This document shows, one piece after another, positions 2,924-62,798 of a DNA stretch of 64,000 nt. Each line of letters opens with the position of its first letter. Position 1 is the stretch's first letter. Below the pieces are notes generated by a model. That model was not told the DNA's origin. It saw only the letters and a list, made by a program, of their open reading frames with translations, and did no database searches. This DNA is from Moniliella sp. 'wahieum' (lineage: Eukaryota > Basidiomycota > Moniliellomycetes > Moniliellales > Moniliellaceae): positions 846,694-910,693 of the forward strand of contig RSEE01000016.1 in the NCBI GenBank assembly GCA_003971905.1, read 5' to 3'. Both the position numbers and the translations under genes were made by a program.

Positions 2924-2953
2924 TGAACGTGGTGAACGTTGAACGTTGAACGA
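2924..2953. repeat. 7-bp-period array (TGAACGT units)
   Basis: TGAACGT occurs at 2924 and, after two extra bases, at 2933 and 2940, followed by TGAACGA at 2947. The core ACGT is self-complementary. Confidence 0.8.
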
Positions 2954-3908
2954 AGAGCTCGGCAGATGATAGTGTTTCTTTGTCCTTCTCTCAGTCTTTT
3001 CAGTTGTTCAAGTGCTGCTATATATGAATGCAGCAGTATATATATCAGAGGGGCTATAATGGGGACTACATCATGTTAGACTGATGTTGTGGGCGGACGC
3101 TTCATCTCGTAGCAAAGAGTCTTTGATATGCAATGCACGCGGCGATCAAGTTACAGCAACTGGCAATGTAGTAGTCTTAATGGATGAGAAGGTTTTGAGA
3201 GAATAACTGTATAATAACTCGTTTGCACGTGCTGTGGTGAAGGGTTTTTCACGAGTGCCACGGTTTTTGGCACAGCAGAGCACAACAGAGTACTGACTGA
3301 GAGAGTAGTATAGCCTTGCCAGTACGTTGTTTCAGACTAGTAGTCACGAAGCAAATACTAATGATTAATGAGCCTGCCGTGCGTGATCTACAGATCTTGG
3401 CTTAAGAGTAGGAAGCACAGTATTAGCACTCACATGTCACACCCCCTACTATTATTAGTACGGATACGCTATTGGCGTAGATAGGATGTGGTTGCTGGCA
3501 AGACGCCAATGGTCTACTATTAGGTGGGGAACCTCTGTTAGATGCGATTGAGACACATAATCATATGACGTCTTCATAAAACGATGTGCCACACTTGTCA
3601 AGCGGCCAGTGGACTTCCTTGAACTTGAAGTAAAACGTTCAACGTTCACCCATAAAACAAGCTGTGCACATCTCCAAAATGGTCTGGTAATCGCCTTAGA
3701 AGAGGCTGTTTGGCGCCGCTATTCTGATGTATATCCGACAAAATGTTTGGTGATATGCACTGCGTTTTGTGTATATCTCAAACGGTGTCTGTTGGCATCT
3801 CACAATGCCTTCAGGTTCCACAGCGAAGTTTGACGATAACCAATTCGATCATTGTCGGGTCAATCGACAATCCCGCATCCCATCCATCTCTCGGACTCTC
3901 ATTTCTGC

Positions 3909-3940
3909 TGATGCACTGATGATCGATGACATGTGACCTG
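3909..3940. repeat. 7-bp-period array with changing cores
   Basis: Units TGATCGA (3920), TGACATG (3927) and TGACCTG (3934) follow each other in exact 7-bp register. Three different tetramers follow the constant TGA, and the first two are self-complementary. A looser TGATGCAC precedes them. Confidence 0.75.
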
Positions 3941-4091
3941 TAACACCTTATGGGAGCTCTACTCTTTTCGTTGTATGCGGGAAAAATGCCCGAGGCTGAT
4001 AAAATGGTTTTCAGTATGCCGCCCGCAAGACAAGCACGGTACTGATGAGACCTGGAGTCCAGATGGTCCTCGAGGGTGATGCAATCGCACT

Positions 4092-4120
4092 AGTGGTGGT
4101 GGTGGTGGTGGTGGTGGTGG
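4092..4120. repeat. GGT trinucleotide microsatellite
   Basis: About nine GGT repeats in noncoding sequence, flanked by unrelated DNA. Confidence 0.9.
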
Positions 4121-4312
4121 GTCTAAGCCAACCAGCAACGCCTACAGAGGAACATCAAGCAGCGCACCAGGGGCTAAGCTGCGGAACAAGGAAAAACAGG
4201 AGAGAAAAACAACGGAACTCCTAGGCCTGAAGAGGAACTGAAGGGACATTGACCAAAGCACGAGCCACCTGATGGCTCAACAGGTACAGCACTTGGATTT
4301 GAGAGAGAGGCT

Positions 4313-4398
4313 TGAATCTTGAAGCTTGACGGAGGAAAGGCTATGTACGAGAGCTTGAAGCTTGAAGCTTTTGACGCTTGAAGCTTGAACGTCTTGAA
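4313..4398. repeat. 7-bp-period array (TGAAGCT and relatives)
   Basis: TGAATCT and TGAAGCT (4313-4326), two TGAAGCT (4356-4369), then TGACGCT, TGAAGCT and TGAACGT in register at 4372-4392. The constant TGA and the changing tetramer are clear. Confidence 0.8.
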
Positions 4399-4686
4399 CA
4401 AAAAGTGTATCTCCGACGACGAAGCTCAGCGCTCATGCACTCACATGGCGCTCATGATTATCATGTGCCTATTTTGTGAGTACCTGATGCCGTGGGTGTC
4501 CAGCCATGATGCAAGGTCATGCATGAACATCAAATACAGGAAGAGACCCTGTGTTACGCCCTGATGAGCAAGGAAGCGCATCATGCACATCATACAACAT
4601 TCTCAGATCTCATAATGGACCCTCCATGAGAATTGTGGTAATGCGATGATTTTGAGATGTGACATGTGGGATCTAGCAATTGGATC

Positions 4687-4864
4687 TGAGATCTGAGATA
4701 CTGAGTACGTACGGGCGTAGCACTGGCGTAGCAGGGCGTAGTAGCACGTTGAGGCTGTTGTGTTTGTGTGTGTTGTGACATGTGATGTGAACATGTAAAT
4801 ATGCAACCAATGCATCATGCGATGCATGTGATGGATGTGATGTTTAGATCTCAGATCTCACATC
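4687..4864. repeat. Two small 7-bp-period arrays (TGAGATC / TCAGATC)
   Basis: TGAGATC and TGAGATA at 4687-4700, with TGAGTAC at 4702. On the opposite strand sense, TCAGATC and TCACATC lie at 4851-4864. GATC and GTAC are self-complementary cores. The DNA between the two arrays is rich in related words (TGACATG, TGCATCA). Confidence 0.7.
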
Positions 4865-5555
4865 TTTCCGAATCTCGCACTCACATCATTAGCACAGGTC
4901 ACTTCATTGGCATGTAAAATGATTAATGACGAAGGTACTGAAGACAGAAGGTTGAATGTTGAGGGGAGTATCATGTACCGCGTATCTCATTCTCAGGGCG
5001 ATTGGCAGCCAGGGGGCTGATCGAGAGGGTCCGACATACTGATGGGTATACAAACACTCCAGGTAGAGAACCCGAACAGCGCAACGGTCTGGAGTGTGGC
5101 GCTAGAGCGTGGTACCCGGTACCGTGGCGTCGGTGATACGTGGGATGGTGTGGGGGATGCAGGCGATAAAAACGCAAGCATCATGCACATGCGTTATAGG
5201 GGGAGAGGGTGCCATCATATTAATCCCAATTCAGAAAGAAGGATGGGAGGTCGGCGTGTGGTGAAGCTTGAAGGGAAAGCGTGCCCCATATGATGGTGTG
5301 GAATCGTGTGTATTGGGATGCTGTGGCCGGTAGTACTATAATAGGTGTGTGCGATTACTTGCTAGTTATACAACAGGGCACTTGGAGCACAGAGAGACAG
5401 AGATATTCAATGCCCCACCTGACATGCCACATACACAGTTGCCGCAACTTCGCATCATGCACATGTGTGCACATCATGTTTCATGCATCTTTTGCTTCAT
5501 GATGCCATCCGTAATACTTCTCAGTACCTAATAGTAAACACATATAAACACGCCC

Positions 5556-5576
5556 TCAGGCCTCAGGCCTCACATC
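5556..5576. repeat. 7-bp-period array (TCAGGCC units)
   Basis: TCAGGCC twice in register, then TCACATC. The GGCC core is self-complementary. Confidence 0.8.
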
Positions 5577-5782
5577 CTATATCAAGATCAACACATAAGA
5601 CAATGGCAGTGCATTAACTAGTAAGAAGTGCAACAAAACTTGATCTGGCATGCTGCACACGGAGAGTTCATCCCCCCGACGGGGCCCCTACCGGCCCTAT
5701 CCCCTCAAAATTGCCTTCTTGTGGCCGGTTATAACATTCTGGCGAAGAGAGATCTCGATCAACGGCAGAGTGGTCGCAAGTC

Positions 5783-5828
5783 TCACTAGTCACTATAGTC
5801 ACTTTCGTCACTAGTCACTATAGTCACC
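5783..5828. repeat. 7-bp-period array, duplicated 25-bp block
   Basis: TCACTAG plus TCACTAT at 5783-5796 is repeated at 5808-5821, so a 25-bp block containing two heptads has itself been duplicated. Confidence 0.8.
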
Positions 5829-6053
5829 TTCTGGCCACCCTTGTCCGCTTCCTCCCAACCGTTCTTGTGACTGTAACAGCCTCGGTCCTGTTGGCGTCCG
5901 TTCCGGCGCACGCGACCATGCCAGCACTGCAACACCGTGGCTGGTACAGGGTAGTGCCCCCAGTGCAGCATGTAATACAACAGAGTTTAATCCCATACAG
6001 ATTCCGGCCCCTTGTCTGGGACACGAGCCAAACTGTAACGTTCACGCGTTGCC

Positions 6054-6134
6054 GTTTAACGTTTAACGTTTAACGTTTAACGTGAATCTTGAATGTTGAA
6101 TGTCGTGAACGCGTGACGCGTGAAGCTTGAAGTT
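6054..6134. repeat. Long compound 7-bp-period array
   Basis: Four copies of a TTTAACG-type heptad (6054-6082) run straight into TGAATCT, TGAATGT, a 9-bp variant, TGAACGCG, TGACGCG (6114), TGAAGCT (6121) and TGAAGTT (6128). One array therefore passes through at least four different core sequences, nearly all in 7-bp register. Confidence 0.85.
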
Positions 6135-6471
6135 AAGCAGCACTGAGCCTGAGCGCTGAGGCGCATATAGTTTTGCCAGTTACAGCCTCAGGCCCAAAAA
6201 GCCCGACGGAACTAAATGTACTAAACCCCAACTGTTGTGCTAATCATTTTATCAAGTTTTTTTTGCAGTGGGACCCAGTGGCCTTCAACTGAAGGTGTGA
6301 ATCACATATTCACACAGAATGTACGCCATTACTAGGTCTTTTATATATCTTGTAAAGCCGCCCTCGCCCCTGGAATCGCCATTCACCTCCCTCCCACCGT
6401 CCTTACCCGTTTTCAACGTTGGTTTCGCCACAGCTCATCGTCCTTTCTTCCATTCATTACTTCTTACGATC

Positions 6472-6939
6472 ATGTCGAGCGCTTACTGCGGCAACGCGTT
6501 CAGCACCTTCTGCCTGCCCTTCTTGGGCCAATGTACGTCGAATCTTCTTGCCTTCACTTCTTTTTTGATGCCTACCCACGCACCTCCACCTAAGAAGCCG
6601 GTGATTGACATTACCTTCCCTAGTCCGCATCTGCCAAGTGATTTGTACATGTGGCTGCTTGGACCATCGCTTGGCTGTGGCTGGGATGCTGGCGAGTTTG
6701 ACCATGCGGACCAGGCAGAGGACGATGCTGCGGCCGAGGCGGCCAATCTGCGAAGGAAGCAGGCCCTCCTTGCCAAGAAGGGCCCTAGCATGGCCCCCTC
6801 GGCTAGCTATGCCTCCACGGAGGCAGAGAGGCAAGAGGAAAAACAAGTTCCGGAACAGACCGAAGCCGAAAACTACCAGCACCAACCTCACCCTCGCGAC
6901 ACAGCAAGTCGCGCCCGCGACTGCCCCCTAATAGTCTAG
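6472..6939 (+). CDS. Hypothetical small protein (about 155 aa)
   Basis: I do not recognise a family. The open frame extends upstream to an ATG at 6319, but the coding-like part begins at ATG 6472 (MSSAYCGNAFSTFCLPFLGQ). The N-terminus has three Cys and hydrophobic residues. A central PPKKPVIDITFPSPHLPSDL stretch is followed by a short segment with a Trp/Gly cluster, an acidic/alanine-rich stretch (EDDAAAEAANLRRKQALLAKK) and a polar, Glu/Gln-rich tail ending at 6939. A GTACGT donor-like site at 6533 with an AG at 6593-6594 would create a stop if spliced, so I read through it. A real but lineage-restricted gene is plausible; chance is not excluded. Confidence 0.35.
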   Translation: MSSAYCGNAFSTFCLPFLGQCTSNLLAFTSFLMPTHAPPPKKPVIDITFPSPHLPSDLYMWLLGPSLGCGWDAGEFDHADQAEDDAAAEAANLRRKQALLAKKGPSMAPSASYASTEAERQEEKQVPEQTEAENYQHQPHPRDTASRARDCPLIV

Positions 6940-7507
6940 ACGCAAGATTTCCCCGTGTCAACCGCCGCAATGGAGGCGAGCGATGCATGCACCAATTTCG
7001 CCTTCCCCGACACACTCTTCGGGGTTTGCTTGTTTAATATCCCCACCCCGGTCCCTTATTCTTGTTACGGAAAGAACGGGTGTTTTTCCCTCATCCTCCG
7101 ACACGCCGTTTTTGGTGTTCTGATTATATTCTGCATATGTTGCTCCCACCGATCTTCTATTTTTTCGCTCAGGTACTTTTCATATTTCTTTATTGTCCTC
7201 GTGCAAGCAACAACATGTACTGTGACCCTCTAAAACGGGCCCGAGTCATCATTGGGGGGAGAGACCATTATGTGATGATCGTCGAGCGCATGGTGTCTTG
7301 TAACTGAAGAAATCCAACAATGGCTCACAGATGTGTGGTTGAGGATAATTGTACGTTCAGCTATATTGCACTTCACGAACCATGTCCGGCTTAAAAGATC
7401 CCAAAGGGTCACCTCATATGGTGAACGCTCCAATGCCAATGGAGTCCACAGTAGTTACGCAACAGTTGATAGAGATCAGACTTCACGTATGATACGGGCT
7501 CACCTTT

Positions 7508-8057
7508 TTAGTGGAGCGCCTGATGCCTTTGACGATAAATCATGTCGTATTCATTATCATTTGAAAAGAAAAACTTAGCAGGGACACTCAAGAAACGCTG
7601 TGCCAACCATACGAGCTTGCTCACCCGGCGTTTCTGACAGCTCACGCCATCCCAACCAGGAGACCATGGTGTTTTCCCACCAGATCGATGGAGTAGGGGG
7701 GCTTCCGCCCCATTCGTTGCTACACCGGATGCAGTGCCATTATTGGTAGATGTATACGAATGGCGTATCTCTCTTGAAACTCTTCTCTGCAAGTTCCTTC
7801 CAGCAGAGTTCAAACATCTTTTCATGACAGTATTGGTGGCGCATAGTTACCCACAGTGTGTTGTCATAGTCCAAGGTGGAAAACGGGCTTTGAGTGCGTC
7901 CGTGGAACTTGGCGTTCTTGTCGCACATACGGCTCGCTCGAGCCCTAGATGCAGATCCTCTCCCCGCACTCCTCAGGCACTGATGAGACGATTCCTCGTG
8001 TATCAACACATTATTTGTAAGTAACGCACCCTTGCCCTCATTCGTCCCGAGTCTCAC
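7508..8057 (-). pseudogene. Transposon-like coding remnant
   Basis: Two overlapping minus-strand frames read as one broken protein. The upstream part carries CDKNAKFHGRTQSPF and then HEKMFELCWKELAEKSF; the downstream part carries ATNGAEAPLLHRSGGKTPW and then CQKRRVSKLVWLAQRFL. The CDKNAK peptide recurs, with conservative changes, at 31609-31664. This suggests a repeated, once-coding element, possibly a transposase or other element protein. No catalytic motif is identifiable and the start is unknown. Confidence 0.3.
7877..7930 (-). repeat. Dispersed repeat encoding CDKNAK-type peptide, copy A
   Basis: About 46 of 52 bases match the segment at 31609-31664, in the same orientation. Read on the minus strand, both encode CDKNAK(F/Y)xGRTQxPF. 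Confidence 0.6.
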
Positions 8058-8528
8058 AAGATGTGTAACACTTCCATCCCTGATCCAATAAAAGCACCTT
8101 GGGGCCTCCCCCCTGAAGTCCTTTTACGCCTAGAGCTATTATCTCTCGTCGCGATTCCATACACTTCTTCCCCCACAACCGGTCCATTGAAATAGAACAT
8201 GAAGGTATCCCAAAGATGAAGCGCACAACTGAAAATGGGCTTCCCCATTGTCTCGTGCAGGGGAATGCTCCAAATCCTCTGGCGCCTACGCTACAGCCTT
8301 CCGATCTTAGAACGTTCGCTGAATCTCACTGTGATTAGTTAGCAACTCCCCCGTGTGGTCACGTACAATCTACCAGGCAAAAGAACACCCGGCGACCATC
8401 CCCACAAATAGCCCACATCCTGCCCAACGTGCAGTGCTGATGGCCTGAACGGCCTGAACATTTCTTTCTCTCCTCTCCCTGTGCCGTCACGTGGTATGCC
8501 AGCCACTGGCCTCCACGCCCTTCACTTC

Positions 8529-12704: not shown

Positions 12705-14032
12705 GGTCTATGGGCCGAGGCGGTGGTCCAGGATCAAGAGGTCCAGATGGAGGAGAGAGGAGAGGTCTATTTCTAGCCTGGTCGATATCTATGCAGCATA
12801 ACGCAGGGCGTTGGCGCAGGGCCGCGTTGGCCCATGCACCCTCGCCGCTATCGGGGTACTACATAGGTGTGGACGCCCTCGTCACGCGTGTCATGTGATA
12901 CGAGATGCGTGACATGTGACATGCGTGGTGCCTGCTGGCTGTACGAACGGGTGACCGGTGATTGGCTTGTCGCTGGTGTGATCTGTGACACTGTGATCTC
13001 GTGACATGCGCCATCCTGCATCCTACTCCTGTGGCCGACGTGGCGCCCCCATCGACCATCCATCTCTCCCTTGGCTTGGCAGTCCTGGGCAGGGAGGGCA
13101 AACATGGTGATCGGACTAGAGCTGCCCTTCAGCAGGGCAGCGCCAGGTAGCGTGCGGGACGATCGCACTACCGTGCTGCTCTGACGCCCTTTTCCTTTGC
13201 GCACACGGGCTCAAGAACATCGTCTACATGTGATGAAGAAACACGGAGGGGATCGACTTTGCCTCTCTCACTCGGGGCGCCCAGGAGAGGTGCACTCGTT
13301 CATTCCTGAAGCGACGGCTGGCGTTGCGAGCACACGTGCACTCACGTACTCAGGACACTCCGATCGACTGGTCCGTCCGCAGAAGGCCTGAGTTAGGCCT
13401 AACTGCTGAGCTCCTGATTCAGTTAACCCTTCTCCTGCACCGCACACTGCCCTTCTCCTCCGCAATCGGTTCGGGATCGACGATCTTTTAAAGCGCACAT
13501 CTGGCCTGTGGTTGTGCTCTGTTGTGCCCTCGATAACTTTTACCGTGAGAGCTTGTCTTGATCGCAATCGGGTCGATGAGGCCGACAGATGATCGATGGA
13601 GAGCGGCCGCTCATTAATCATTCCCGCAACCTGAGGACACCCTGGGGTCGGAAAGGCCCCTGGGGGGGGGGTGTAACTTTTGTTGGTCCACTGGGAGAAA
13701 GAGCCTGTCCGCGCGTAAGAGCTATCATGCATCGTGCCAGTGACTGCGATCACACATCATGCATCACCCATGTTTCAAGCTTCAACTTCACCGCCGTCCC
13801 ATCCAACTCTCTTCCCTCCTCTCGACGGGCACCTCTGGATAGGATGGAATACGAATATCATTGCCTCCTGTGACTTGCCTTTCATAAAACCAACACTGTT
13901 GAGTTGGGGATAACCACTGTTGAAGCAGGTCGGTGAGATGAATCTCCTGTGTTGCTCATTACGACGAGTTAGGGATCCTGGGGCCTTACAATGGATGCGT
14001 GACGGTAGCGAACTGAAAAAGTGAAAAAGATG
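12705..14032. other. Intergenic, no gene recognised
   Basis: Contains a 7-bp-period array and scattered open frames of up to 161 codons on the minus strand (13268-13753) without any recognisable family or compositional sign of coding. Confidence 0.5.
12882..12925. repeat. 7-bp-period words (TCACGCG, TGACATG)
   Basis: TCACGCG at 12882, then two TGACATG units in register at 12910-12923. More TGA/TCA words (TGACCGG, TGATC) follow up to about 13000. Confidence 0.65.
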
Positions 14033-25051: not shown

Positions 25052-27275
25052 CTATGCGATGAAACCAAGACCGGAACGAATGCTGGAAGCAGTTAGCAGT
25101 TCGTTCCCTATTGTGATTTCTCTTTTTTTCATTGCGTGTGTCGTCTTGGAAGCTCTCGCGTACTGCGCTTCCCTCGTTCTTTGACTTGCTCCATCGTCCA
25201 CTTTTTTGTCTGTGTTACTTATTCCCCCTTTTGGTGGCCGCTGGCCTTTGGACTGGCTCGCCCAGCCTGCTTCTTGACCCATACGGGTTCCCTGGATCAC
25301 ACTTTTTACTTCGGATCGGGTTTTGGTGATAAAAAAAAACTCAAAAGCCTCCATGGAACATATGCCCCCCTCCCCTCCGCCCCTTGGCACCTACCCCCTC
25401 CATGCCTACTTAGAAAGACCCACTGTGCTATGGACTGCTACCTCTCCTAATCCCCTCGTACTCTTTCGGTCTGTGCCCAGGCGTAGCTCAGTGCTAGTGA
25501 TACACGATGCAGTCTTATTTTGTGCCACGTGCTGCAACCAGGCAGACATGCGGGCATATCTGAGTTCCCGACAAGGGTAGGCACTATCGTCGCGGGACAT
25601 GAAAACCCACTCCGCTGTACAGCGTCCGACCGGGACAGGCCCCTGCTCAGCACACTAAGCTCATCCCATTCTCAGCGTGTCCAAGCTGGATGGACGGATA
25701 GTATTCCACGGGGCGCCAGTGGCCCGGGGACACGAATTCAAAGGGCTTCTGCCAATTCGTGGGCTTTGGTATGCTGCCGCGTCCCCGCGCTGTCGCAGGC
25801 CATAGTCTCTTGGCTCTTGCCCCCCCCTCCTCAAACCAACCAGACCGACCCAAACAGCAGACCAGCCCAACCGGGGAAAGAAAGTGACGGGATCCATCGC
25901 ACATGAAGCGCATGCAGGCCACGGAGGCAGAAAAAAGACCGAGGGGGGAGGCAGACAGCGCGTCGTCTCCCAGGGAGCTGGGTCCAGTCTGCCCTGAAGA
26001 TAGCCTTGGCGCACTTGCACTGCGTGTACGTGCGATTAAGTCAGTGCTTTATCATCGAATCATCGATCATCGATTAGAGGCAAGGCACGGACTGGCAAGC
26101 TAGGCGCTAGGCAGAGCCAAAAGTTCCCCTGCATGGAATCGACGCGTGACGCGGTTCGTTGACGGCTGACGCTCGTTGGCAGTAGCTAGTAGTGTTGGAA
26201 GAAGGGTTCCGCTCGCTGGCTGCGCCCTGCTCACCCCCCTGTTGCCCCATCTGGCCTTTCGTGTTTGGGTCTCGTGTCTCTTGTCTCTTTCCCTTCGTCT
26301 GTCTATGGTCCAGCAAGTTGCCTACCAACCAGGCGATGTCACGGGCTGGCGGCGACACGAGATGGTCCGACCCAAGCTAAGGCCCGCCTGCTCCGCACAT
26401 GCCCAGTAGAGCGTGCTCCGCAGGCCAACCAAGTGTGATGATGGTTGGCTAAATCAAGTATCGTGGCCGAAGGGCCATGCTCCGCGCGACAATAGTCGCC
26501 CCCCCAAGTCCAAGTCGGCCGGCCTAAATAAGGCACCGAGCTTCCAGTGCCGTGGCGGCATCTGCCGTCCCGTCCCCGTTTCCGTTCCTTTCTCTGTCGC
26601 GCCTGCGGCGACCAACCCCGCTTTTGACATGTCTCCTTTCTACACCCCCTCTTGTATCCGTTTCCCTTTTGATCCTGCCTGTACCCCTGGTTGATGGGGA
26701 TCTTTTCCCCACCTTCCATTCTCGTCCCCACTCTCGTCATCTCTCGTCTCCACCTTCGTCCCTTTCCCGCCTATCCTGTCCGACTCCTGCCCGTTTCCAG
26801 CCAATTGATCCAGTACAGGCAGCTCTTCTTGTTAGCGTCCGACTTCTCCTCCGACCTCGTCCTCCAGCCCTTCGTCAACCCCATCGCGCGAGCCCTCCTT
26901 TGGCCGCGGCGATTCCAGTCTCAGTTAAGGCAGTGTTTGTCCGCCGCTGCCTCCTCCCGTCCCTAAGTCCCGAGGCTTCAGACACGTTACTACGGCCAAG
27001 CCGGTGCAGACGCAGCCTTGCCACACGTGCAGCCGCCCCACCAAAGGCCTCCCCTCGTCCCTAGCTCCGCATCGGATACACCAACCAGCCCAAGCCCGAA
27101 ACTACCGTGAGTCGTCCTTCCGTCTCCTAAGGGATTGTACCCCAAAAACCCCAGGCGGGCCCCTGGCGGCGCCCGCCCGTGACAGGCGAGCTCTTCTGAT
27201 ATGGGTTTGCTGTCGGTCAGCACGTTTCAGTGCGTCAGCGTTCAGCCCGATCGTAGTCACACGGCACGTAGCATG

Positions 27276-27303
27276 TCACGCGTCACGTGTCACGCGTCAC
27301 AAG
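27276..27303. repeat. 7-bp-period array (TCACGCG / TCACGTG)
   Basis: TCACGCG, TCACGTG, TCACGCG and TCACAAG in exact register. The first and third have a CGCG core. A mirror-sense array (TGACGCG, TGACGTG, TGACGCT) follows at 27350. Confidence 0.9.
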
Positions 27304-27349
27304 CACTGATCACCGATCGGTGCGCTCAGCCAGCGCTGCCCCCACGCCA

Positions 27350-27370
27350 TGACGCGTGACGTGTGACGCT
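27350..27370. repeat. 7-bp-period array (TGACGCG units)
   Basis: TGACGCG, TGACGTG and TGACGCT in exact register. This is the reverse-sense counterpart of the array 47 bp upstream. Confidence 0.85.
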
Positions 27371-27526
27371 TTTGAAGGAGCGCGGAGCGCTCACTGCATG
27401 CGCTCCCATGTAACAAGTGTGCAACAAACAGGTATCATATAACTGCCAGACCCGGTGGCTTGAGTGGGCAATGAGCTTGCCGCGGCTTCGCGCGGGGGGC
27501 GAAAGACTTGTATCTGGCAATCGGTA

Positions 27527-27547
27527 TCATTAATCAGTACTCAGTAA
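27527..27547. repeat. 7-bp-period array with changing cores
   Basis: TCATTAA, TCAGTAC and TCAGTAA in exact register. Two different self-complementary tetramers (TTAA, GTAC) sit behind the same TCA. Confidence 0.85.
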
Positions 27548-27930
27548 GGCCCATCGCAGACTGTGATGATTAATGAACCCCTCTCCGATCTCCAGCTAGC
27601 TTGAAGAGCTTGAAGTGCTTGGGGCCTGAGGATCAGGCCTGAGGGCCTGAGTATCCTAAGTTCAAGCTTGAAGCCAAGCTTGAGCTTGCTCCTCCTTGCT
27701 TCTGCGGGTCGGTACAGATCGGCACCCTGCAAAGGGTCTACGGGCGGAGCGCCAGGTCGGGGTACCCTGCGCTTCGGGAGCCAGTATAACATGCATCACT
27801 CAATACTTCGATCATCGACAATCAGTACGAAGTTGACAAACAAACGCGCTGGAGAAGGTATTGCCAGGTTATGGTATGCCCGACGCAGAGGGGAACAGCG
27901 TTTGGCCGGCCAGGACGTTAAAACGTGAGT

Positions 27931-27958
27931 TGAACGTTGAACGTTGAACGTTGAACGT
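27931..27958. repeat. 7-bp-period array, four perfect TGAACGT
   Basis: Four uninterrupted copies of TGAACGT, the cleanest single-unit array in the window. Confidence 0.95.
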
Positions 27959-28003
27959 CGACCTCAAAGGCTGGTCAGTTGAGCGGGGCGTCCGGCCCCT
28001 CTC

Positions 28004-28036
28004 TCAGATCTCAGGCGGTCTCAGACCTCAGGCAGC
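28004..28036. repeat. TCAGATC / TCAGGC array
   Basis: TCAGATC (28004), a 10-bp variant starting TCAGGC, TCAGACC (28021) and TCAGGCAGC. Confidence 0.65.
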
Positions 28037-28260
28037 ATACGATCAGAGACAAATGCCTAGTATGGATTTCCAACGATTGCATTTTCTCTGAGATCTGATG
28101 TCCTATGGGATGCTAACGATTCAATTTCCTCTTCTGATGCCATATGCGACAGCAGGCGACAACATGCGACCACGCCCGTATAAAGTGTGTCGGGCGGGAG
28201 CTTTTTTCCGATAAAATCGAAAGTCAATTCCCCTTCTGCGCGTTCAACGTGTTCAACGGT

Positions 28261-28347
28261 TCATGCATCATGCATCATGACATGTGACATCAAGACATTC
28301 ATGTGCATGATTATCGATCTCGATTATCAATTATCAACGATCAAGGT
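28261..28347. repeat. 7-bp-period arrays (TCATGCA, TGACATG, TCAATTA)
   Basis: Two TCATGCA units (28261-28274), then a switch of strand sense to TGACATG and TGACATC (28278-28291). A second array at 28327-28347 has TCAATTA, TCAACGA and TCAAGGT in register. Confidence 0.85.
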
Positions 28348-28730
28348 ATGAAGACATGAAGATGGCCAACGCGCCAACGCAGCGCTCCACCAGCTGTCTA
28401 TGTTGTCCTGTCCTGTCGAGAGAAAGAGCAATTGGTATCATGCATGCATCACGGGCAGATCCAGGCCCCACAGGGCCTCAGGGCAGCCTTCTTCAGAGAG
28501 AAAGGCTGTTTATTATGGCATACTGTTGACTGCACTAGCTCTGTACTCAGACTGACTACTGAGCGCGTACATTCAGGGCTCAGGCTGAGCCTTACAGCGC
28601 TGAGCGCTCCGTGAGCCTAAGCCACTCTTGCCTCAGCCACTTGTGCCTCAGCCAGAGCGCCCGAGCAGCGCTGAGCCACAACAATAATTCACTGGGAGGG
28701 CCCAGCGCCAGCGCCGCCAACGCCAATCGC

Positions 28731-28751
28731 CCATCGCCCATCGCCCATCGG
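28731..28751. repeat. 7-bp-period array (CCATCGC units)
   Basis: CCATCGC, CCATCGC and CCATCGG in register. The period is the same but the prefix is not TGA/TCA. The complementary word GATGGGC forms a similar array at 54110. Confidence 0.85.
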
Positions 28752-28917
28752 CAGACCAGTCAAATCCTAATAGTCAGAGTATGATCAGTACATCAGTGCA
28801 TCATGCATCAGGTGATACCTAGTGAAACATGGCGGCGGTGGGGCCGGTGGCGCTTCCAGCTTCCCGCTTCCAGACAGGCCATGAAGTTGGGTTAGGGGTT
28901 CTCGGTTCTGAAGCAGC

Positions 28918-28949
28918 TGAGCTTGACTTGAAGCTTCAAGCTTCAAGTC
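28918..28949. repeat. 7-bp-period array crossing a strand switch
   Basis: TGAAGCT at 28929 is followed in exact register by TCAAGCT and TCAAGTC. The unit changes from TGA- to TCA-sense without losing the 7-bp phase. Confidence 0.8.
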
Positions 28950-29955
28950 TGCCGAAGCGCTGAAGACCTACAGCCTAAAAAGGAACGATAGAATACGGCC
29001 GCGACAACTGGGTTTCAGTAGTTGCACAATGCCACAAACCCAATAGGCAAACCCAACCATCGCACACTATATCGACAAACCGTCATCAACAAATCTGTCG
29101 TTTCCCCCCCCAAATGCCTAGATTGCCTGGATTGGCTGCTACAGCAAAAGGCTCACGGTTGTTTGGCATAACCTCTAGGATACAACCTGTAACAGCCTAT
29201 CGCGTAATAATGAGCAACAAGGGGTGACGGTACCATGTAATAGCATGTCACCGATCATCTACATGAAACGCGAAATCTCTCTCTTCCCAATACGCAATGC
29301 TCAAAGCACTGTACCGCCCTTTATCTCTGTGAGAGTCTGCGCCGCACGGGTGAACGAGAGCGCTGCCCCCAATCTGTAGGCGAAGACCTGATGTCCAGAT
29401 ACACCCGTTGGACCGTCTGCAAGCCACACGAAACCCTGTGTACTCCTCACTTCAACCTCGCCCTACGTAACCACAAGGATGGTCGAGATAGTTGAACGTT
29501 GATGGCTACAGTGTGATCGATGATATCAGCGGCAGCTGCCTCAGCGTCTCAGCGCCACCCGACCCAATGGTCATCCTCTTCAGTGACTGCGTACTCACTA
29601 CACCATGTCAGAGTACCGATCGTGCTGATCTGTGTGAGTTGAGATGAGATCTCTGAGAGGCGAGGCGATGGAAGCAGTGGTCCAGCTTCAAGCACAAACG
29701 CGCGTGCTCCTCTCGCTACCGTCGCCTCGAGTCTGGTACTGGCTGGTCCCAATCCCAGTCCCGTCCAGTTCTAGTCCCAGTTCTCCTCCCAGTGCCAACC
29801 AGCATCGTCCCACCACTTCCAATCTCTCTTCAAGCTTCATCCTCACCACCAGTGTCTTCTCGTTCGCTTTCTTTTCTCGCAATCGCCTAGTCGCAGCCTT
29901 CTCCTGTGAAGACTGTGCCATATCCTTTTGTTCACCATCCCCATCCTATTGAAGA

Positions 29956-33366: not shown

Positions 33367-34963
33367 GCCCTCTCGTTGTGAGATGGTAGTGCGAAGGGTC
33401 CCTTGCACTCTTCCAAATTTGTTTAATGGCGCTCGCTTAGTTTCGCGGATTCGTTCCGCGCGCAGGCTGTGTGCATCCCCTGTCTGCTTTGCTTGTTTCT
33501 TTTGTGCCTCCTTTCCCTCAGCATACTTGAAGGACAAGTGGATAACCATCCTTCCTTCTTGCACGTCTTGAAGGCGCACCCTGCTTTCTCTGTTCTTGTG
33601 TTATTCCTCGCAATGAAGCACATGCGTGAATAAGGCTGTCAGTCGCACACCCGTTCGGACCATTGAACCCATAGTGTGGATGATCTTGCGTCAGCCTTAA
33701 GCTTCAAGACGCTCTTATTCCTTGTTTGAGCGCAGATACGGCCAGACCTTCGCCATCCTGAAGTACACAAAGCGGTCCAGACGAGTTCCACATTCCATGT
33801 TCGAACGGCAGACGACAGTAGGTGTACCATGCATACCGCGCGCTCACTGAGCTTCAAGGCTCAAGCTCAAGTACCACCCTTCCGGATCTGAGCTGGTGTC
33901 GAACAGGGCCGTGTGAGCGCTGGTGACGCAGGCCGACACCGTTCTTTTCCGCGAGCTTCTCATCAATCTCACTGGCGTGCTCCACCAGCTCCGCCATCTT
34001 GATTGCGAATGCAAGAAACAGGCGGTTACCGGCAAGCGCTTATTCGGTGCCGGAGTCGATAATCGATAAGCGCCTGCGCGTATGCCGTGATCGATGATTA
34101 GATTGATCGATGATCCATCAAGATTAGTGGTCACCGGTCACCGGTCACTAGGTCATGGTCAGCGCTGAGGCTCAGCGTTCAGCGAATGCGGTTCCGGCGA
34201 TCGAGCCGGTGCAGTGCTGCTGCGTGCTGCTGCCAACAATTCCGGGCGTTCCGTTTCCCGCCAGTCGATGACGCGATTCTTGTCTGACGCGCTGACGCGA
34301 AACAACCTGTGGGTTTTGTGGTCGCGGATTCTTGCACCAATTTCGCGCCAGCCCGGCGGTTTTGCGGCTCGCATATCTCCCGCGACTCTCATGGGTTGCC
34401 CCTGTCATCTCGCAGGGGTACTTAGATCTGCTTCTCTCTCTCGAGCGCTGTATCCGCTGTGCTTACATGGTATAGAGACTGTGTTGTCTCGGTTACGTTT
34501 TTGATATAGTTGCCTCGCTACAGAGTTACATCGGGGCCCAGTCACGTCTCGAGACACGAAAGAAAATCGGACGAGTTATATTTGGGACATTCATGTGGCC
34601 AAGGTCTGTCGGGCGGGGTTCGGATGCTCATCTAGAGCATATCGTGGCGGCGAGAGCTTTGTCGTTTGACCCAATACGCCACCCAGATCTCTTTTGAGAT
34701 GGTGATAATAAGTTCTTTTCCCCTGGATGGGCGCCGATGGAAGGCGGCGGGGACGGGAGGGGAGGCTGGACAGTCGTGGGTGATAGTCGTGGATTGGAGG
34801 CCGAGAGGGGACGAACGGATACGAATGAGATGCGGTAACATTGGAAAGGGTCGTGCATAGGGGCGTCGAAAGAGGATATGGCGGTGCAGTCGCGCACCTG
34901 AGCGGTTGGGGGGGGGGGGATTCCGCGGGCGTAAAGATGGAGGGGATGCGTTCAAGATACGTC
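33367..34963. other. Intergenic, no gene recognised
   Basis: Only short frames. Contains the 34088-34151 array and AAGCTT/TTCAAG words around 33700-33870. Confidence 0.5.
34088..34151. repeat. 7-bp-period arrays (TGATCGA, TCACCGG)
   Basis: TGATCGA and TGATTAG in register (34088-34101), TGATCGA and TGATCCA in register (34104-34117), then TCACCGG, TCACCGG and TCACTAG in register (34131-34151). Three different self-complementary cores occur within 64 bp. Confidence 0.85.
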
Positions 34964-38702: not shown

Positions 38703-39026
38703 ATGGGCACAGAAGCCACGGTAATACTGCAGGCCCGGAACCTGCATGTGCTGGGCGCCACGAAGCCGGACGTCATTGGTTGGGGGCGTGTGTGCAACGG
38801 GTTTATCTACAATCGCGACCGCCGTTGCATCGTGTTGACAGCAAGACCTACACGCTGTGGGCCACACTATGTGAAGTATGAGCTCCACGGCCGTGGGCTT
38901 TCCCTGGAGCACATTCAGGCCATCATGAAGCAACTCGGTTTCTCCTTCTCGCCTCCCTTCATGACGGATAACCAGGGCTACATCCATGGCAACCTCACTG
39001 TAGAGAACGTTCAGCTGCATGGCTAA
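38703..39026 (+). pseudogene. Hypothetical coding fragment cut by a MITE
   Basis: The frame from 38703 has a protein-like composition (DVIGWGRVCNGFIYNRDRRC, then GLSLEHIQAIMKQLGFSFSP, then DNQGYIHGNLTVENVQLHG) but no family I recognise. The last two codons and the TAA stop come from the MITE that begins at 39018, so the insertion truncates the frame. Sequence after the MITE (39135 on) stays open without a stop for about 75 codons in one frame and may be the severed 3' part. The true 5' end is unknown; the frame may extend upstream of 38703. Confidence 0.4.
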
Positions 39027-39134
39027 TCGAAATTCTTGTGCACAATCTTGCACAGCCTTGCCCACCTTGAATTTTGTACGTAGTCCTCACATATCTATCC
39101 GCAACCTTGTTACCAGCGTTTTCGATTAGCTATG
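39018..39134. mobile_element. MITE, copy 1 (117 bp)
   Basis: Bounded by imperfect terminal inverted repeats (CATGGCTAATCGAAA at the left; the right end reads TTTTCGATTAGCTATG). A second copy of exactly the same length lies at 60892-61008 with about 90 per cent identity. No coding capacity. A target-site duplication is not obvious. Confidence 0.85.
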
Positions 39135-47118: not shown

Positions 47119-48398
<1,280 letters not shown>

Positions 48399-51600: not shown

Positions 51601-52779
51601 CGAAGATGCCTTTTTCTGCGCGGACGGGGGGCAGCTGTTTCAACGCCAAACGCCCAATCAACTTGGTGTATCCTTTGGCGATCTGAGCATTGCTCGCATG
51701 CAGGTCAGTGTCCTGGTGAGCCTCCCGAGAAGCCTCAACCACAGCCAAGACGGTTTGGAAGAGCGAAAGCATCTGTGTCACCCGTCCAGGCTCAAGTACT
51801 TTGAGCAGCTCACAAAGAGAGAAAAGGATGCCCGTTTGAAGGTAGATAGACGCGCCTGCTTCTGGGCCAAGGGTGGTGGCCGACCAGTGGAGGAACGAAT
51901 GCAATGCGTCTTGCGTCTCGGGCCTGAATGGGATCAGTACGGTGCACAGGAAGGGAGGAAGTGCGAGAGAGAAGAGGAGGGGACGTACCTTTGGTACAAC
52001 CGTCCCACCAGAACGACAGAAGCTCCCTCTCAATACCGGGGACGCCAATGTAGGCGCGTGCTAGGTGGGCGATTTGGTCGACGTTGTCTGGGCGGGACGG
52101 TCAAACTGCCGCAGATCAAATGGGATCATACAGACGAGGGAGAGCCAGAGAGAAGCGTATAGCGCACCTCCCATTCCATTACCAGCACAACACGGCCTTC
52201 TCTTGAGGCGGATGGGGAGCGGGTAGAATTGCGAGATCGGGGGTACCAAGGATGCTTCCAACACATCCACCAGCGGCCGCAGGTCTTCCACCTCGTGGGG
52301 GAAAAAGTGGACTGGGGGGCAGGGGGTCAGTGGGTCTGTATGTGCAAAGAAGCCAAGCATCCAACAAGGTACGTACTGATGGTTTTGTAGCCCCGGATTC
52401 GGCTGTAGAGATAAAAGATGCGCCCGAGCGTGTTGAGCGCAAGCACAGCCTGTGCGCCTGGCTGCGCGCCCTGGCCCATGCCCGCGTGCACCGCCCGCAC
52501 ACAGTCCGCAGCGCGGCCGAGACGGGGGCAATCATGCGGTCAAGGTACGGATCGAGGAGATATGTCTGCGCCTGCTCGGCATAGGGATCGAGCATCTCGC
52601 GCATCTGCTTCAGCAGCTTGTCCGCCCCCGTCTGCACCGCGCCCAGGTCAACAGGGAAGTGCTGCCGCCCGAGGAGCAGAGGCGGGGACAACGAGCTGGA
52701 GGCATTGGTCGAGGAGCGAGAAGAAGGCGTCGGACGAATCAAACGTGACCAAATCCCTCTCTTCCACGCCATCGTCCAT
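48656..52779 (-). CDS. Tubulin-folding cofactor D (TBCD / Cin1 / Alp1)
   Basis: A HEAT-repeat chaperone that holds beta-tubulin and assembles alpha/beta dimers. ATG 52779 gives MDDGVEERDLVTFDSSDAFF, then MREMLDPYAEQAQTYLLDPY. RIRGYKTI is followed by an intron at 52312-52376 (GTACGT donor) and FFPHEVEDLRPLVDVLEA. LVCMIPFDLRQFD and the YTKLIGRLALKQLPP segment come next. Then the clearest block, from 51463: MRYSAAKGVARISERLPSAF, VRDGACYVFWALARAHDMQS, DREVSIRRAASAAFQEGAGR, and LDLFPHGLDVIRLADFFAVG. The C-terminal domain has DDYSVDRRGDVGSWVRSASM near 49950. The last exon ends LLLSTAWTSLPDAQSAA with the stop at 48656. Several introns and frame breaks are present. The length of about 1,150-1,200 aa fits the family. 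Confidence 0.9.
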
Positions 52780-53409
52780 GGTGGTGGTCGGGGGGGTGGA
52801 TCGACGCAAGAGGTGCAGAGGTGGTGCGTGCGTGGACGCTGACTGGCCGGTCGTCGCCGCCGCCTCGCCTGCCTGCCAGGACAGGACGGCGGGGCAACCC
52901 TAGCGCCTGTTCTTGCGCCACCCATAACCCTAGCGCTGCGCGATTGACCGTTAAAGCACGCCGCGCACGCGTGCAGTGTGTGCTCGTTTGCGTTGTGATG
53001 GATGATGGATGATGCATCGCCTCCCGGATCCCAGATCCCAAGCCCCCTTTTTGTGTGACGCTTGGAAAGAGGCTCTCATGTATATCCACTCTGCTGCGCC
53101 CTCTGTTGGCCTCACTGCTATGTGCCTCTCGAAGCGGACGCTTGACAGTGACCGCTGTATCCAGTGACGCTACATGGAGGACCGAATGCCCTAGGCCCTC
53201 ATCCTCTGTCGTCAGTCGCGGCCAAAGGGTAGTCGTAGTATGAACAGCCGTATGAACACCGCGTCTCTTCATACATCTTGCGGCTTCGAGAGCCGCAATC
53301 CATGCACTCCAAGAGGCTGACCGCCGATGAGGGTGGTGGGAACAAGACGAAAGCAGGGGAAGAATTGAATCGTTATGCGTCAGTCGCCACGCCGACTTGG
53401 CTGGCTACG
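52780..53409. other. Intergenic, no gene recognised
   Basis: Upstream region of TBCD and downstream of the PMP3-like gene, both on the minus strand. Nothing protein-like. Confidence 0.5.
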
Positions 53410-53793
53410 CTAGCGTGCCGTACTGTGATGTCTATCGGTTAGTGCTGTGAGGTCATTCTCACAGTAATAGGGTGGGGCCAGGTATTGGCGTACCTGGCGA
53501 GGCGGACCAGCGGGCGGCGCGACTGGGGCAGAGGAGATGGTGGTAGGCAGGATCGGTTCGTAGCGACCCTGTCCCACATACACAAAGCCCTGCAGACCAT
53601 ACACCTCGCGCGCCTGGATGTACTTGTAGATGCAGTAAAACGCCCACAGGTGGCCCGGGAGCACACCGAGAAAGGTGAGCACAATGCTGATCAACATATC
53701 CCACGTGCACAGGCCCGCAATCCACGCCACAGGCGCAGGGGGGCAGATGAGTGCCACAAGCACAAGCAACACGTCGGAGCAGTAGACAGTCAT
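53410..53793 (-). CDS. PMP3/RCI2-family membrane proteolipid with C-terminal extension
   Basis: A small two-helix membrane protein of the Pmp3 (UPF0057) stress family, which in yeast affects plasma-membrane potential. ATG 53793 gives MTVYCSDVLLVLVALICPPA. The first helix runs into the CPP motif. WDMLISIVLTFLGVLPGHLW is the second helix with the family L-G-x-LPG motif, followed by FYCIYKYIQAREVYG. The family is usually 50-60 residues; here about 70 further polar residues follow (GRYEPILPTTISSAPVAPPA) to the stop at 53410, as in many fungal paralogues. The frame appears intact, unlike most neighbours. A poly-G/poly-C tract begins 21 bp upstream of the ATG. Confidence 0.85.
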   Translation of the reverse strand: MTVYCSDVLLVLVALICPPAPVAWIAGLCTWDMLISIVLTFLGVLPGHLWAFYCIYKYIQAREVYGLQGFVYVGQGRYEPILPTTISSAPVAPPAGPPRQVRQYLAPPYYCENDLTALTDRHHSTAR

Positions 53794-53813
53794 TGTTGGT
53801 GAGTGGTGGTCGA

Positions 53814-53846
53814 GGGGGGGGGGGGGGGGGGGGGTGGGGGGGGGGG
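53814..53846. repeat. Poly-G tract (21 G, T, 11 G)
   Basis: One strand is almost pure G for 33 bp, directly upstream of the PMP3-like start, so the transcript leader would carry poly-C. The true length is unreliable in long-read data. Confidence 0.9.
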
Positions 53847-54848
53847 CTGGTGCCAGGTGCAGGGGTAAAAAAGCGGCGGGGGTGGGGCAACGGAGCGCGA
53901 TGAGTTTTGCGAGTTGGCCGCCGCCGGTTATTATATGTGTAGCCCCCATCAGGCCCCAGCTAACCTCAGGGGCGTAGACGGTTATAGGAGCGGCGTTACA
54001 TTAGCACAGCATCCGAGGGGCAAAACGTGTGTGCTCCGCCAGCTGCTCAGCCTGAGCCCTGTTCTTCAGCCGCGCGCTCTGAACGATGATCTCTGCCAGG
54101 GAGACGGCCGATGGGCGATGGGCGATGGGCAAAGGCCACTTCAGCTCCAAGCTTCAAGCTTCAAGCTTCAAGAGTCAAAAAGAGCGTCAGGCTTCATGCT
54201 TCTGGCAGGGCGCTTGTGTCCTGCCCAGCAGTGCTCTGTTTCTGGTGGCAGAGGCGCCACGGGTTCCCAGCGCCTCCTCCTCGGACCCAGCCGTGCCCCC
54301 ACACGTCCCCACCGCACGGGCCTCTCCACCTACGGCGATTACCGACAATCGATGAGATGTACCAACATGTAGATGCGCTGCCAACTCCACCCGCGGAGCT
54401 GGGTGTGCTGGGCGCGAAGCTTGAAGAGGGCCCGAAACACGTAAAGCGAGAGAGGGTTAATCGATTTCATCAGTGGTAGAGGTGGATCACGCGCATCATG
54501 GCCGAGAGCGTCACGGTGGGCGACTGCATGCGGACCACTTCTCGCAACATCCGATAAATACGCGTAATGGGAACCAAGAGGGATGCTGCGTGGTGGCGAC
54601 ACTGGTGACCTTCTACTTTTGGTAGGTGCCCGACAGCCATAGCGTCAGTCAGCGAGCGAGCTAGAGGTAGTGTATATACTAGCGTTTCCCCCGTCCCTGC
54701 CTGCATGGTGCAAATGATAGTTTGGTACGTTGAGAGGGACGACTCACAAGGACAACAGGTTCCCAGACGAGGGCAACAAGAATGTTGAGCGCCATACATT
54801 ACCGCATGTCGTTTCGGAAGCCCTCGGTAAGATCCATCAGCCCTTCGG
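53847..54848. other. Intergenic, no gene recognised
   Basis: Open frames on both strands are short and unconvincing. Holds two 7-bp-period arrays around 54110-54180. Confidence 0.5.
54110..54180. repeat. 7-bp-period arrays (GATGGGC; TCAAGCT)
   Basis: Three GATGGGC units (54110-54130), then TCAAGCT, TCAAGCT and TCAAGAG in register (54154-54174). Confidence 0.9.
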
Positions 54849-56215
54849 TTACTGAGCCTGGAGACCAGCCTGAACCAAACCACCCTTGCTGTCCAGCACC
54901 GCCACACGTTCTGGGCGAGGGACATTTTCATGTCCACACAGCCCGGCTGACGGGACGAGAGGAAGAAAGCGAGGCCATCCAAGACGCTGTACTCCTCAAA
55001 TGGAGGGCAAGCCAACAATGGCGCTTCTTGCTCCAAGTCCATCCCGTCGTACATCCCGCTGTACAACCAATGCGTCGTCATGAAACCCCCTGGTTTGGAC
55101 CAAGGGTAGGTGGAGTGCACCTCATTCCAGTGGGGTTAGCAGCGATCCATTCGACCGTGCGCTTCATTTCCTCTCCTTGGGGCGCTGAAGCGTATCGTGG
55201 ACTGCCTGTGCCACTTGAGCCAACGTCCCATGAGCCAACAGGTCTGGATCAAACTCCATAGGCAAGGGGTGAATGGCGTTGGGAAAGTACTTTTCGCCGA
55301 GATTAAGTCGATCCCACGCCGCATGTCCATGGAGGTGAATGCATGAGTGGTATGGTGCTTTGGATCGACAGTCTGGCGAGCGCGGAAGACAGTGCAGTAT
55401 AGAACGGCGGAGAGCGTGATAAACGTAGAGAACGTAGCTTTGTCACCTGTTGCAGGCCGTCCGCAGGCATGTTTAAGGGCCAATCTCCGTTGGGGTAAAG
55501 CGGAAAAATCTCCCCTCGGTCTTAGGCGGAGTAGGCACATTCACCGTCTCAGGCGGTGCAAGGGTATACACATTGGGGCAAAATTCAAGTGCTGCTTTCC
55601 GTTCTTCGGGGGTGAAGCTCTTGTCGGCCAAAAACGAGTTCAGCAATGGCACTTCTAATGCCTCGCCGCGGTAGAGGCGCGCCAGGTTGCGGAGCAGCCT
55701 CATGCTCCCTCCGAAGTCGCAAACGAGATGGTGGATCCGCGCTGAGAGAGCAGCAACGCCATTGGCAAATTCAGTGACTTGAATGGAGAAAATTGGCTCG
55801 TCTTTCAGCTTTTCCATGTCCATATGGACCGCGTCAAAGGGAGGAAGAAGATCACCGCCCTTTTGAGGGGTGAGCTGATCGACAAAGTTGACGCTGGGGT
55901 CAAATACCAGCTTGTCGGGCGAGGACGCAAGATAGAGTTTAACGCCTCCCAGGTGTGTCAGATCGACTTGGGGTTTTCCCGAGGGACCGGAACAGAGGCG
56001 ACCGCAAAGATGCGGGTAGGCCTTGAGCAGCTCCAAGAGGGCTTCGCGCAGGCGGTGACCTCGATGCGCGAGTAGAGGTAGAGATGGGGGATGGTGACGG
56101 CGGGGAAGGTGTACCAGTCCAGCGGACCGAGCGGGTGCACATCTCCTGGCACAAGGTTCGGCGATAGCACGTTTTCTGCCGAACGGACGGTGATGGGGGC
56201 CGAGGTGAGCGCCAT
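54849..56215 (-). CDS. HxxxD-type acyltransferase (BAHD/transferase family)
   Basis: A CoA-dependent acyltransferase of the transferase superfamily (plant BAHD enzymes, fungal O-acetyltransferases). ATG 56215 starts MALTSAPITVRSAENVLSPN, then GPLDWYTFPAVTIPHLYLYS, the usual N-terminal strand. After a frame break come LREALLELLKAYPHLCGRLC and SARIHHLVCDFGGSMRLLRN, which holds the catalytic HHLVCD (HxxxD) motif. After 55473 the frame moves again: LKHACGRPATGDKATFSTFI, SMDMRRGIDL, then WLYSGMYDGMDLEQEAPLLA, the position of the family DFGWGKP loop. The end reads ERVAVLDSKGGLVQAGLQAQ with the stop at 54849. The DFGWG motif itself is degenerate (YDGMDLEQ), which is common in fungal members. The substrate is unknown. 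It is divergent from the next gene. Confidence 0.8.
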
Positions 56216-56301
56216 GGGGATGGTGTGGGTGGGGCAAAGGAGAGCAAGCGGGCGACAGACGGAAGCACCCGAGCAACACCGCCCTGATGAGCACTAGGGA
56301 C

Positions 56302-56360
56302 CACGTGACTAGTCGAGTGACCCTAGTGACTCACGAGGTCATTGGCGTGACGTCACTAGT
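56302..56360. repeat. TGACTAG / CACTAG words in a divergent promoter
   Basis: TGACTAG, TGACCC, TGACTCA and TGACGTCACTAG words are clustered between the divergent acyltransferase and zinc-domain genes. The register is less strict than in other arrays. Confidence 0.5.

Positions 56361-62762: not shown

Positions 62763-62798
<36 letters not shown>

Follow-up and report, generated by a model that had tools for sequence, protein, structure and literature searches.

Flank-templated 7-bp repeat units at TNA sites of Moniliella sp. 'wahieum', probable serial footprints of an excision-type reaction

The DNA analyzed here, called the window, is a stretch of 64,000 nucleotides that forms the terminal part (positions 846694-910693) of contig C16 of the basidiomycete Moniliella sp. 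'wahieum', whose assembly comprises 223 contigs and 69.5 Mb with a GC content of about 57.5%. It carries short arrays in which a TNA triplet alternates, mostly every 7 bp, with a palindromic tetramer. We found that the two bases adjoining TNA are the template of this tetramer. Rather than as TGA or TCA followed by a palindrome, the unit is more aptly described as a duplicated 7-mer, NNTNANN, in which two bases are inverted. The arrays are probably the serial footprints of an insertion/excision-type reaction carried out by a transposase-like enzyme.

In the following, aa and bb are the two bases to the left and right of TNA, a prime marks the reverse complement, and P is a palindromic tetramer; the main signal is defined as TNA-P-TNA with the same N on both sides. 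The main sample (314 kb) consists of the window and 25 pieces of 10 kb from contigs C1-C15, a non-random choice. Expected values, given after "vs", are means of shuffled sequence (Markov shuffles for period-7 runs and 50 shuffles for the 314-kb count).

The 7-bp Signal and Its Triplet

Exact period-7 runs with at least eight matching positions number 29 vs 1.55 in the window and 86 vs 3.2 in 200 kb outside it, and those with at least 12 matches are 14 vs 0 in the window. The period by itself is not the feature, since periods 6, 9, and 12 are likewise raised in the window (26, 24, and 21, vs fewer than 2 each) and also in the 200 kb outside, a pattern expected of coding DNA, and since 11 of the 29 window runs lack any palindromic tetramer. 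The window holds 69 TNA-P-TNA sites, the main sample 298 vs a shuffled mean of 13.3 (maximum 22), and a 264-kb set 262 vs 9.0. Control triplets of like symmetry show no excess in the 314 kb (ANT 12 vs 11.0, CNG 22 vs 36.0, and GNC 40 vs 35.7), and non-palindromic same-N TNA pairs are mildly raised there (257 vs 193.6). The arrays are real and far above chance. A genome-wide feature is supported by exact whole-genome matches, counted on both strands with overlaps, which are far above their controls: 4968 for CTTGAAGCTTGA vs 1 for the reversed control, and 175 for TTGAACGTTGAACGTTGAACG vs 2. Extrapolation from the 314-kb sample gives an estimate of about 0.9 sites per kb, or about 60,000 sites in the assembly.

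The enrichment depends strongly on spacer length. In the 264 kb, palindromic spacers of 2 nt (37 vs 38.6) and 6 nt (6 vs 3.0) are near background, those of 8 nt are few (4 vs 0.4), and length 4 alone is strongly enriched. ATG/CAT (37 vs 9.2) and ATC/GAT (20 vs 6.2) also exceed expectation in that set, perhaps as TNA arrays in another reading register.

An initial annotation, made from the letters of the window, had described inter-gene arrays of a strict 7-bp period, built from TGA or TCA and 13 of the 16 palindromic tetramers. The arrays, and the excess of period-7 runs and of palindromic tetramers that it had proposed to look for against shuffled sequence, hold up in the window and beyond it. 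The period is dominant rather than strict, since spacings of 8 and 9 bp are present beside 7 bp in the 314 kb. TGA/TCA is the commonest form (216 vs 7.4 in the 264 kb), but the real triplet is TNA, since TAA/TTA is enriched too (46 vs 1.6). The repertoire rises to 14 tetramers in the window (AATT once) and to all 16 in the 314 kb, where AATT, ATAT, and TATA occur 2, 3, and 1 times. Finally, 14 of the 15 distinct array positions quoted carry TNA-P-TNA at most 15 nt away, and at the remaining one (GCGC, 9843) the units are not spaced by exactly 7.

The annotation had placed the arrays between genes. In the 314 kb, frames that run for 450 nt or more without a stop hold 54 sites in 206 kb (0.26 per kb), and the remaining 108 kb hold 244 (2.26 per kb), a contrast that is overstated because TGA and TAA are stop codons. 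The empty target reconstructed from 78 events is T-(C/G)-A (TSA), with no clear preference elsewhere apart from a weak bias toward TNA-like sequence at a distance of one unit. Tetramer usage follows the dinucleotides flanking TNA loosely in the 314 kb (r = 0.59), with AGCT and TGCA over-used and GCGC, AATT, ATAT, and TATA under-used relative to them.

Flanks of TNA as Template for the Tetramer

Relative to an empty aa-TNA-bb, the filled sites read aa-TNA-(aa'aa)-TNA-bb or aa-TNA-(bb bb')-TNA-bb. Of the single same-N sites (175), 58 match the left template alone in the outer two bases, 53 the right one alone, and 23 both, and identity between flank and template is about 0.6 at two positions on each side, falling then to 0.3-0.4 (168 sites). 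At sites with no letter common to the two templates, bb bb' was found 40 times vs 0.35, aa'aa 38 times vs 0.4, and the plain 7-bp duplication (bbaa) 16 times vs 0.55, each other class shown reaching at most 7; 335 same-N sites with letter-sharing templates (199 palindromic vs 5.25 and 136 non-palindromic vs 85) were excluded from this count as ambiguous. These counts indicate that P is not free and consists of one flank plus its reverse complement, from either side equally often. A change of N to its complement between the two TNA copies is also raised (38 vs 11.5 in the 314 kb).

The duplicated unit can be seen whole in rarer classes. In the 314 kb, the whole aaTNAbb occurs twice around two filler bases 40 times vs 0.94, the filler being aa' or bb' in 27 of the 40 (chance about 1 in 8), and around one filler base 18 times vs 1.3, the filler being the complement of a neighbor in 17 of the 18 (chance up to 7/16). 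An example is CCTGAAC+GG+CCTGAAC at 8444-8459 of the window, where aa is CC and the filler GG is aa'. These classes support a 7-bp duplicated target with bases resembling P nucleotides. Excision footprints should carry the target as a direct repeat to either side of the joint, and such repeats are seen with one filler base, with two, and with none. In the matrix of end states, the excess is concentrated along a total length of +7; the top classes, trimmed by 2 on one side and extended by 2 on the other, hold 175 and 168 cases, and the intermediate ones, which overlap with homogeneous arrays, 119-127.

The template rule would also account for arrays in which P changes, as products of a single original TNA with differing left and right neighbors. 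Of the 47 same-N arrays with at least two P, eight are mixed, and 13 of their 16 outer flanks agree with the predicted template, the remaining three being one base off. Three points of the initial annotation find support: neighboring units with different tetramers do stay in register, slippage of a single unit is insufficient since it cannot make mixed arrays, and a templated or enzyme-guided process is supported, the copied bases being those adjoining TNA. The homogeneous units expected of microsatellite slippage, free of any phase or palindrome rule, are not what we found, given the palindromy, the TNA phase, and the mixed arrays, although unit slippage may add to the homogeneous arrays.

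Empty and Filled Alleles in Two Haplotypes

Window positions 2300-6300 and 27185-29300 are collinear with C4:894400-898250 and C4:927600-929800, respectively, with an ungapped identity of about 95%. Two diverged haplotypes or subgenomes thus appear to be present in the assembly, which is probably dikaryotic, diploid, or hybrid. Over the two aligned regions (4.0 + 2.1 kb, about 6.1 kb), 31 footprint clusters could be compared; 20 differ in site number, with 12 richer in the window and 8 in the partner, and 11 are equal. The allelic variation for which the initial annotation had proposed a comparison among strains is present between haplotypes.

Fourteen allele pairs were hand-picked from the alignments and checked as exact strings. 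Thirteen differ in length (eight by 7 bp, two by 14, two by 8, and one by 13) and one by substitution; the window string of pair 12 is also found inside the longer array of the partner. All seven pairs with a 4-nt P whose flanks predict different P follow the template rule; at 3340, one of the seven, aa of the empty allele differs by a substitution as well. The single-copy empty sites expected in a relative are thus found in the second haplotype, the direction of change being unpolarized. A scar at 3942 is carried by the second haplotype and the window is empty there, so neither haplotype is simply the scarred one. Indels of 1-3, 5, and 6 bp are also numerous in the alignment.

A Candidate Reaction and the Evidence Against It

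The sequence rule, the statistics, the filler classes, and the empty and filled alleles are direct observations, from which we infer an enzyme, hairpins, in-register joining, and a mobile element. The enzyme would act at NNTNANN (aaTNAbb), where staggered joining would generate a 7-bp target duplication. Release would leave both flanks as blunt hairpins with tips bb and aa, a host nuclease would nick each of them about 2 nt from the tip to give the palindromic 4-nt overhangs bb-bb' and aa'-aa, and joining of the ends in register would produce a net gain of exactly 7 bp. If one overhang sequence survived, with either strand copied, two equal classes would result, aaTNA-bb bb'-TNAbb and aaTNA-aa'aa-TNAbb. 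Since the products would retain the TNA target, repeated hits, together with ordinary unit slippage, could build arrays, and hits on both sides of the original TNA could make them mixed. The even symmetry points to blunt, RAG-like hairpins rather than to the hAT type, and the changes of N to its complement would fit some hairpins being opened four or more bases from the tip. Hairpin-ended breaks, known from V(D)J coding joints and from the excision of hAT elements, are marked by short inverted copies where two direct duplications meet.

Several observations weigh against serial footprints of this kind. Neither flank is matched in 41 of the 175 single same-N sites. Each of the eight mixed arrays changes P just once, but five of them have only two P, for which a single change is automatic, so that the one-boundary rule is barely tested by the other three; four more mixed arrays, in which N differs, were excluded from that count. 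Some of the haplotype differences are plain unit slippage or substitutions, and polarizing the alleles would require an outgroup. The +7 length is also more uniform than that of the Ac/Ds footprints of Candida albicans, for which 28 footprint types among 128 are given (PMC5873905).

The element and its enzyme, moreover, did not come to light. A scan of 338 kb based on terminal inverted repeats (TIRs), which would miss elements without TIRs, did not reveal a convincing element between 7-bp duplications of the form NNTNANN: there were 11 candidates vs 2 in each of the ANT and CNG controls, and ten of the 11 look like pieces of arrays, the other being L016:1392-2003. Identical 3-bp flanks were found for 13 of 1433 inverted-repeat pairs, just one of them TNA and array-like. 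Profile searches, weakened by the introns that split eukaryotic genes, gave no match to the hAT dimerization domain (PF05699), the KDZ transposase domain (PF18758), a RAG1-type domain (PF12940), or the P-type RNase H transposase (PF21787), all with silent controls, nor to the MULE domain (PF10551) or PIF DDE_Tnp_4 (PF13359), whose controls responded in 3 and 1 of 14 genomes, respectively. A partial SNM1/Pso2-type domain match (PF07522; 27.7 bits, E 1.3e-4) lies at C175:29408-29614. Twenty copies of one long terminal repeat (LTR) family (17.0 kb) contain no footprint, and no TNA-P-TNA insertion was seen among 23 aligned LTR copies; such scar-free LTRs are either uninformative, or spared, or young. 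Of the dispersed repeats in the sample, the two families of the window with clear borders are LTR-like, with TG..CA ends and 5-bp duplications, and are not the element sought.

Alternative Explanations

The lack of any element in the sample, the negative results with six domain families (most controls silent), and the very large number of events would suit a nuclease or domesticated transposase that acts without a mobile element, making paired nicks at NNTNANN that pass through a hairpin or overhang to end joining between sister copies. However, the simplest account of a 7-mer that is duplicated in a single event is target duplication on insertion, and any other would require sister-chromatid exchange; we hold this element-free explanation to be rather unlikely. 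Its broader form, in which a transposase-derived enzyme without a resident element writes templated 7-bp insertions at TSA sites throughout the genome as a built-in mutagenic process, has left tens of thousands of scars, and still drives the haplotypes apart, is a possibility that we put forward only tentatively. Replication template switching at tiny quasi-palindromes, with the nascent strand folding back, copying two bases in inverted orientation, and resuming at TNA, would likewise explain the 2-nt inversions and the added 7 bp; being self-complementary except for N, TNA could realign, and products with N flipped are found. Nevertheless, it should act equally at ANT, CNG, and GNC, where there is no excess, should vary the palindrome length when length 4 alone is strongly enriched, and does not predict 7-mer duplications with one or two filler bases, which makes it improbable.

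TNA is a known 3-bp target type of IS1031/PIF-like elements, and a palindrome between identical TNA copies could be explained by a TIR transposon with a 3-bp TNA duplication that leaves two terminal bases per end, as Tc1-like elements do. But a P derived from the element should not match the outer flanks, and it matches at least one of them in 134 of the 175 single sites, a result on which Tc1-like TIR remnants were rejected. The terminal dinucleotides of the elements would have to include all 16, the PIF domain was not found (with the control limit given above), and 7-mer duplications with filler are left unexplained, so that element-derived footprints are very improbable. Least credible are transcription-factor or other binding arrays maintained by selection on spacing, the latter having been raised in the initial annotation. 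The sites lie mostly outside long frames, and TGA resembles a bZIP half-site, but all 16 tetramers occur and loosely track the local dinucleotides, flank templating would have no reason, and 20 of the 31 clusters differ between haplotypes, which speaks against selection on spacing.

Relation to Known Systems

Excision-type footprints with P nucleotides are already known, and they have been described for Ac/Ds in Candida albicans in a source that cites yeast and plant work (PMC5873905). The proposed footprints and those of hAT Ac/Ds have in common a target duplication, flanks capped by hairpins (putative here), a few bases copied in inverted orientation, and slight trimming where the ends join. 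The Ac/Ds palindromes, however, center on the complement of the element-bordering base and have odd symmetry (PMC5873905), whereas even 4-nt palindromes dominate here. Unlike those of Ac/Ds, the sites also appear to be hit serially, and their length is mostly +7.

Target duplications of 7 bp are described for the basidiomycete DNA transposons hAT7 of rust fungi and the TIR-less Kyakuja of Laccaria (PMC12730594); they share this length with the present sites, for which no transposase match was obtained, the controls being silent. Galileo, of the P superfamily, has a 7-bp duplication that is palindromic except at its center, GTAGTAC (PMC2775673); the target reconstructed here is centered on TSA and lacks GTA..TAC. 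Dada transposons make 6-7 bp duplications, again similar to the 7 bp here, but target small RNA genes (PMC3706591), while the present sites are dispersed in non-coding DNA. The 3-bp TNA/TWA-only duplication of PIF/Harbinger differs from the present one, which spans 7 bp.

At the V(D)J coding joints of RAG, blunt flank hairpins are opened near the tip, giving P nucleotides of even symmetry; Artemis opens hairpins at a 2-nt offset, and target duplications of Transib and RAG are 5 bp long. The even symmetry appears to be shared with our sites as a pattern, and the duplication, 7 bp here, is not. Hairpin opening by Artemis is supported by published work (PMC8450076). In a comparison of rice genomes, perfect excisions were 8 of 94 and joints were mostly irregular (PMC4423477); there, as here, comparison of empty and filled sites in related genomes reveals excision scars, but a single class dominates in Moniliella. 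Heptamers that contain TSA may also be present in the intergenic DNA of smut fungi. A full-text literature search did not reveal a description of this repeat grammar in titles or abstract openings. We know of no precedent for the density, the mostly fixed +7 length, the serial arrays, and the absence of a visible element.

Arrays and Other Features of the Window

In the first collinear region, where the second haplotype is denoted L058, an array TGA.ACGT.TGA.ACGT.TGA (2933-2949) is one unit shorter in L058, and TGA.TTAA.TGA (3362-3371) has one additional unit (7 bp) there. TCA.ACGT.TCA (3639-3648) is left-templated (aa=GT) and L058 has the empty GT-TCA-CC, the 8-bp difference being made of 7 bp plus 1 nearby. 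The mixed TGA.TCGA.TGA.CATG.TGA (3920-3936), whose left flank fits the template and whose right flank is one base off, is longer by one TCGATGA unit in L058. It is followed by the empty CC-TTA-TG (3942-3954), where L058 reads CC-TTA.GGCC.TTA.GGCC.TTA-TG (14 bp). An AGCT-type array (4356-4388), with TGA.AGCT.TGA at 4356 and 4379, shows a 16-bp length difference, and AG-AGA-CC (4539-4549) faces AGTGACC+T+AGTGACC, a 7-bp duplication with one filler base. TCA.GATC.TCA (4851-4860) is absent from L058, which differs by substitutions, and the left-templated TCA.GGCC.TCA.GGCC.TCA (5556-5572; aa=CC, bb=CA) faces a clean empty CC-TCA-CA (14 bp). TCA repeats with the 4-nt spacer CTAG and the 6-nt spacers CTATAG and CTTTCG (5783-5826) are identical in both haplotypes; a homogeneous TTA.ACGT array with three P (6056-6079) is 13 bp shorter in L058, and the mixed cg-TGA.CGCG.TGA.AGCT.TGA-ag (6114-6130), with both outer flanks fitting, lacks its AGCT unit there.

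In the second region, where the second haplotype is L059, TCA.CGCG.TCA occurs twice around a CGTG spacer (27276-27299), 15 bp longer than in L059. The mixed TCA.TTAA.TCA.GTAC.TCA (27527-27543) fits the template on its right flank and is one base off on its left, and its right-templated GTAC unit (bb=GT) is absent from L059. The adjoining AG-TAA-GG (27542-27556) is empty in the window, where L059 has the right-templated TAA.GGCC.TAA, and CC-TCA-GG (28469-28486) has one additional 7-bp unit in L059 (TCA.GGCC.TCA). The window also holds TGA.CATG.TGA (12910-12919), a TGA.ACGT array with three P (27931-27954), TCA.TGCA.TCA.TGCA.TCA (28261-28277), a cluster of TGA.TCGA.TGA and TCA.CCGG.TCA.CCGG.TCA (34088-34147), and TCA.AGCT.TCA.AGCT.TCA (54154-54170).

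Among the other repeats, a solo-LTR-like insertion (26337-27184) has TGTCAC..GTGACA ends and a 5-bp duplication, GGCGA, and L059 appears empty at this point; among the 41 genome matches listed, its own included, 39 span at least 827 of the 848 bases (40 of 619 candidates were scored). A second LTR-like repeat on the minus strand (4043-4282; TGTTGAG..TCATCA, duplication GTACC) is absent from the partner haplotype and has 39 further near-full-length matches in the genome. Two copies of a 117-bp repeat resembling a miniature inverted-repeat transposable element (39018-39134 and 60892-61008) are 90% identical; their TIR starts with CATGGCTAATCG, and their flanks suggest a 2-bp duplication. An isolated eukaryotic large-subunit rRNA fragment (62696-63081, minus strand; Rfam model positions 1914-2341 of 3401) lies near the contig end and is adjoined by a tRNA match (62024-62094). 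The best named relatives of a sucrase/ferredoxin-like protein (38%, with further basidiomycetes next) and of SF3A3 (50%) encoded in the window are from Tilletiaria anomala, metagenome proteins scoring higher.

Significance

If serial excision-type footprints are the right explanation, the genome could serve as a fossil archive of a single DNA-cutting chemistry, with about one site per kilobase, whose joints would record the duplication length, the position of hairpin opening, and the choice of strand. The footprints would also represent a templated class of indels that alignment and repeat-finding software may mistake for microsatellites. Such archives could reveal vanished transposases and measure the end-joining habits of non-model fungi.

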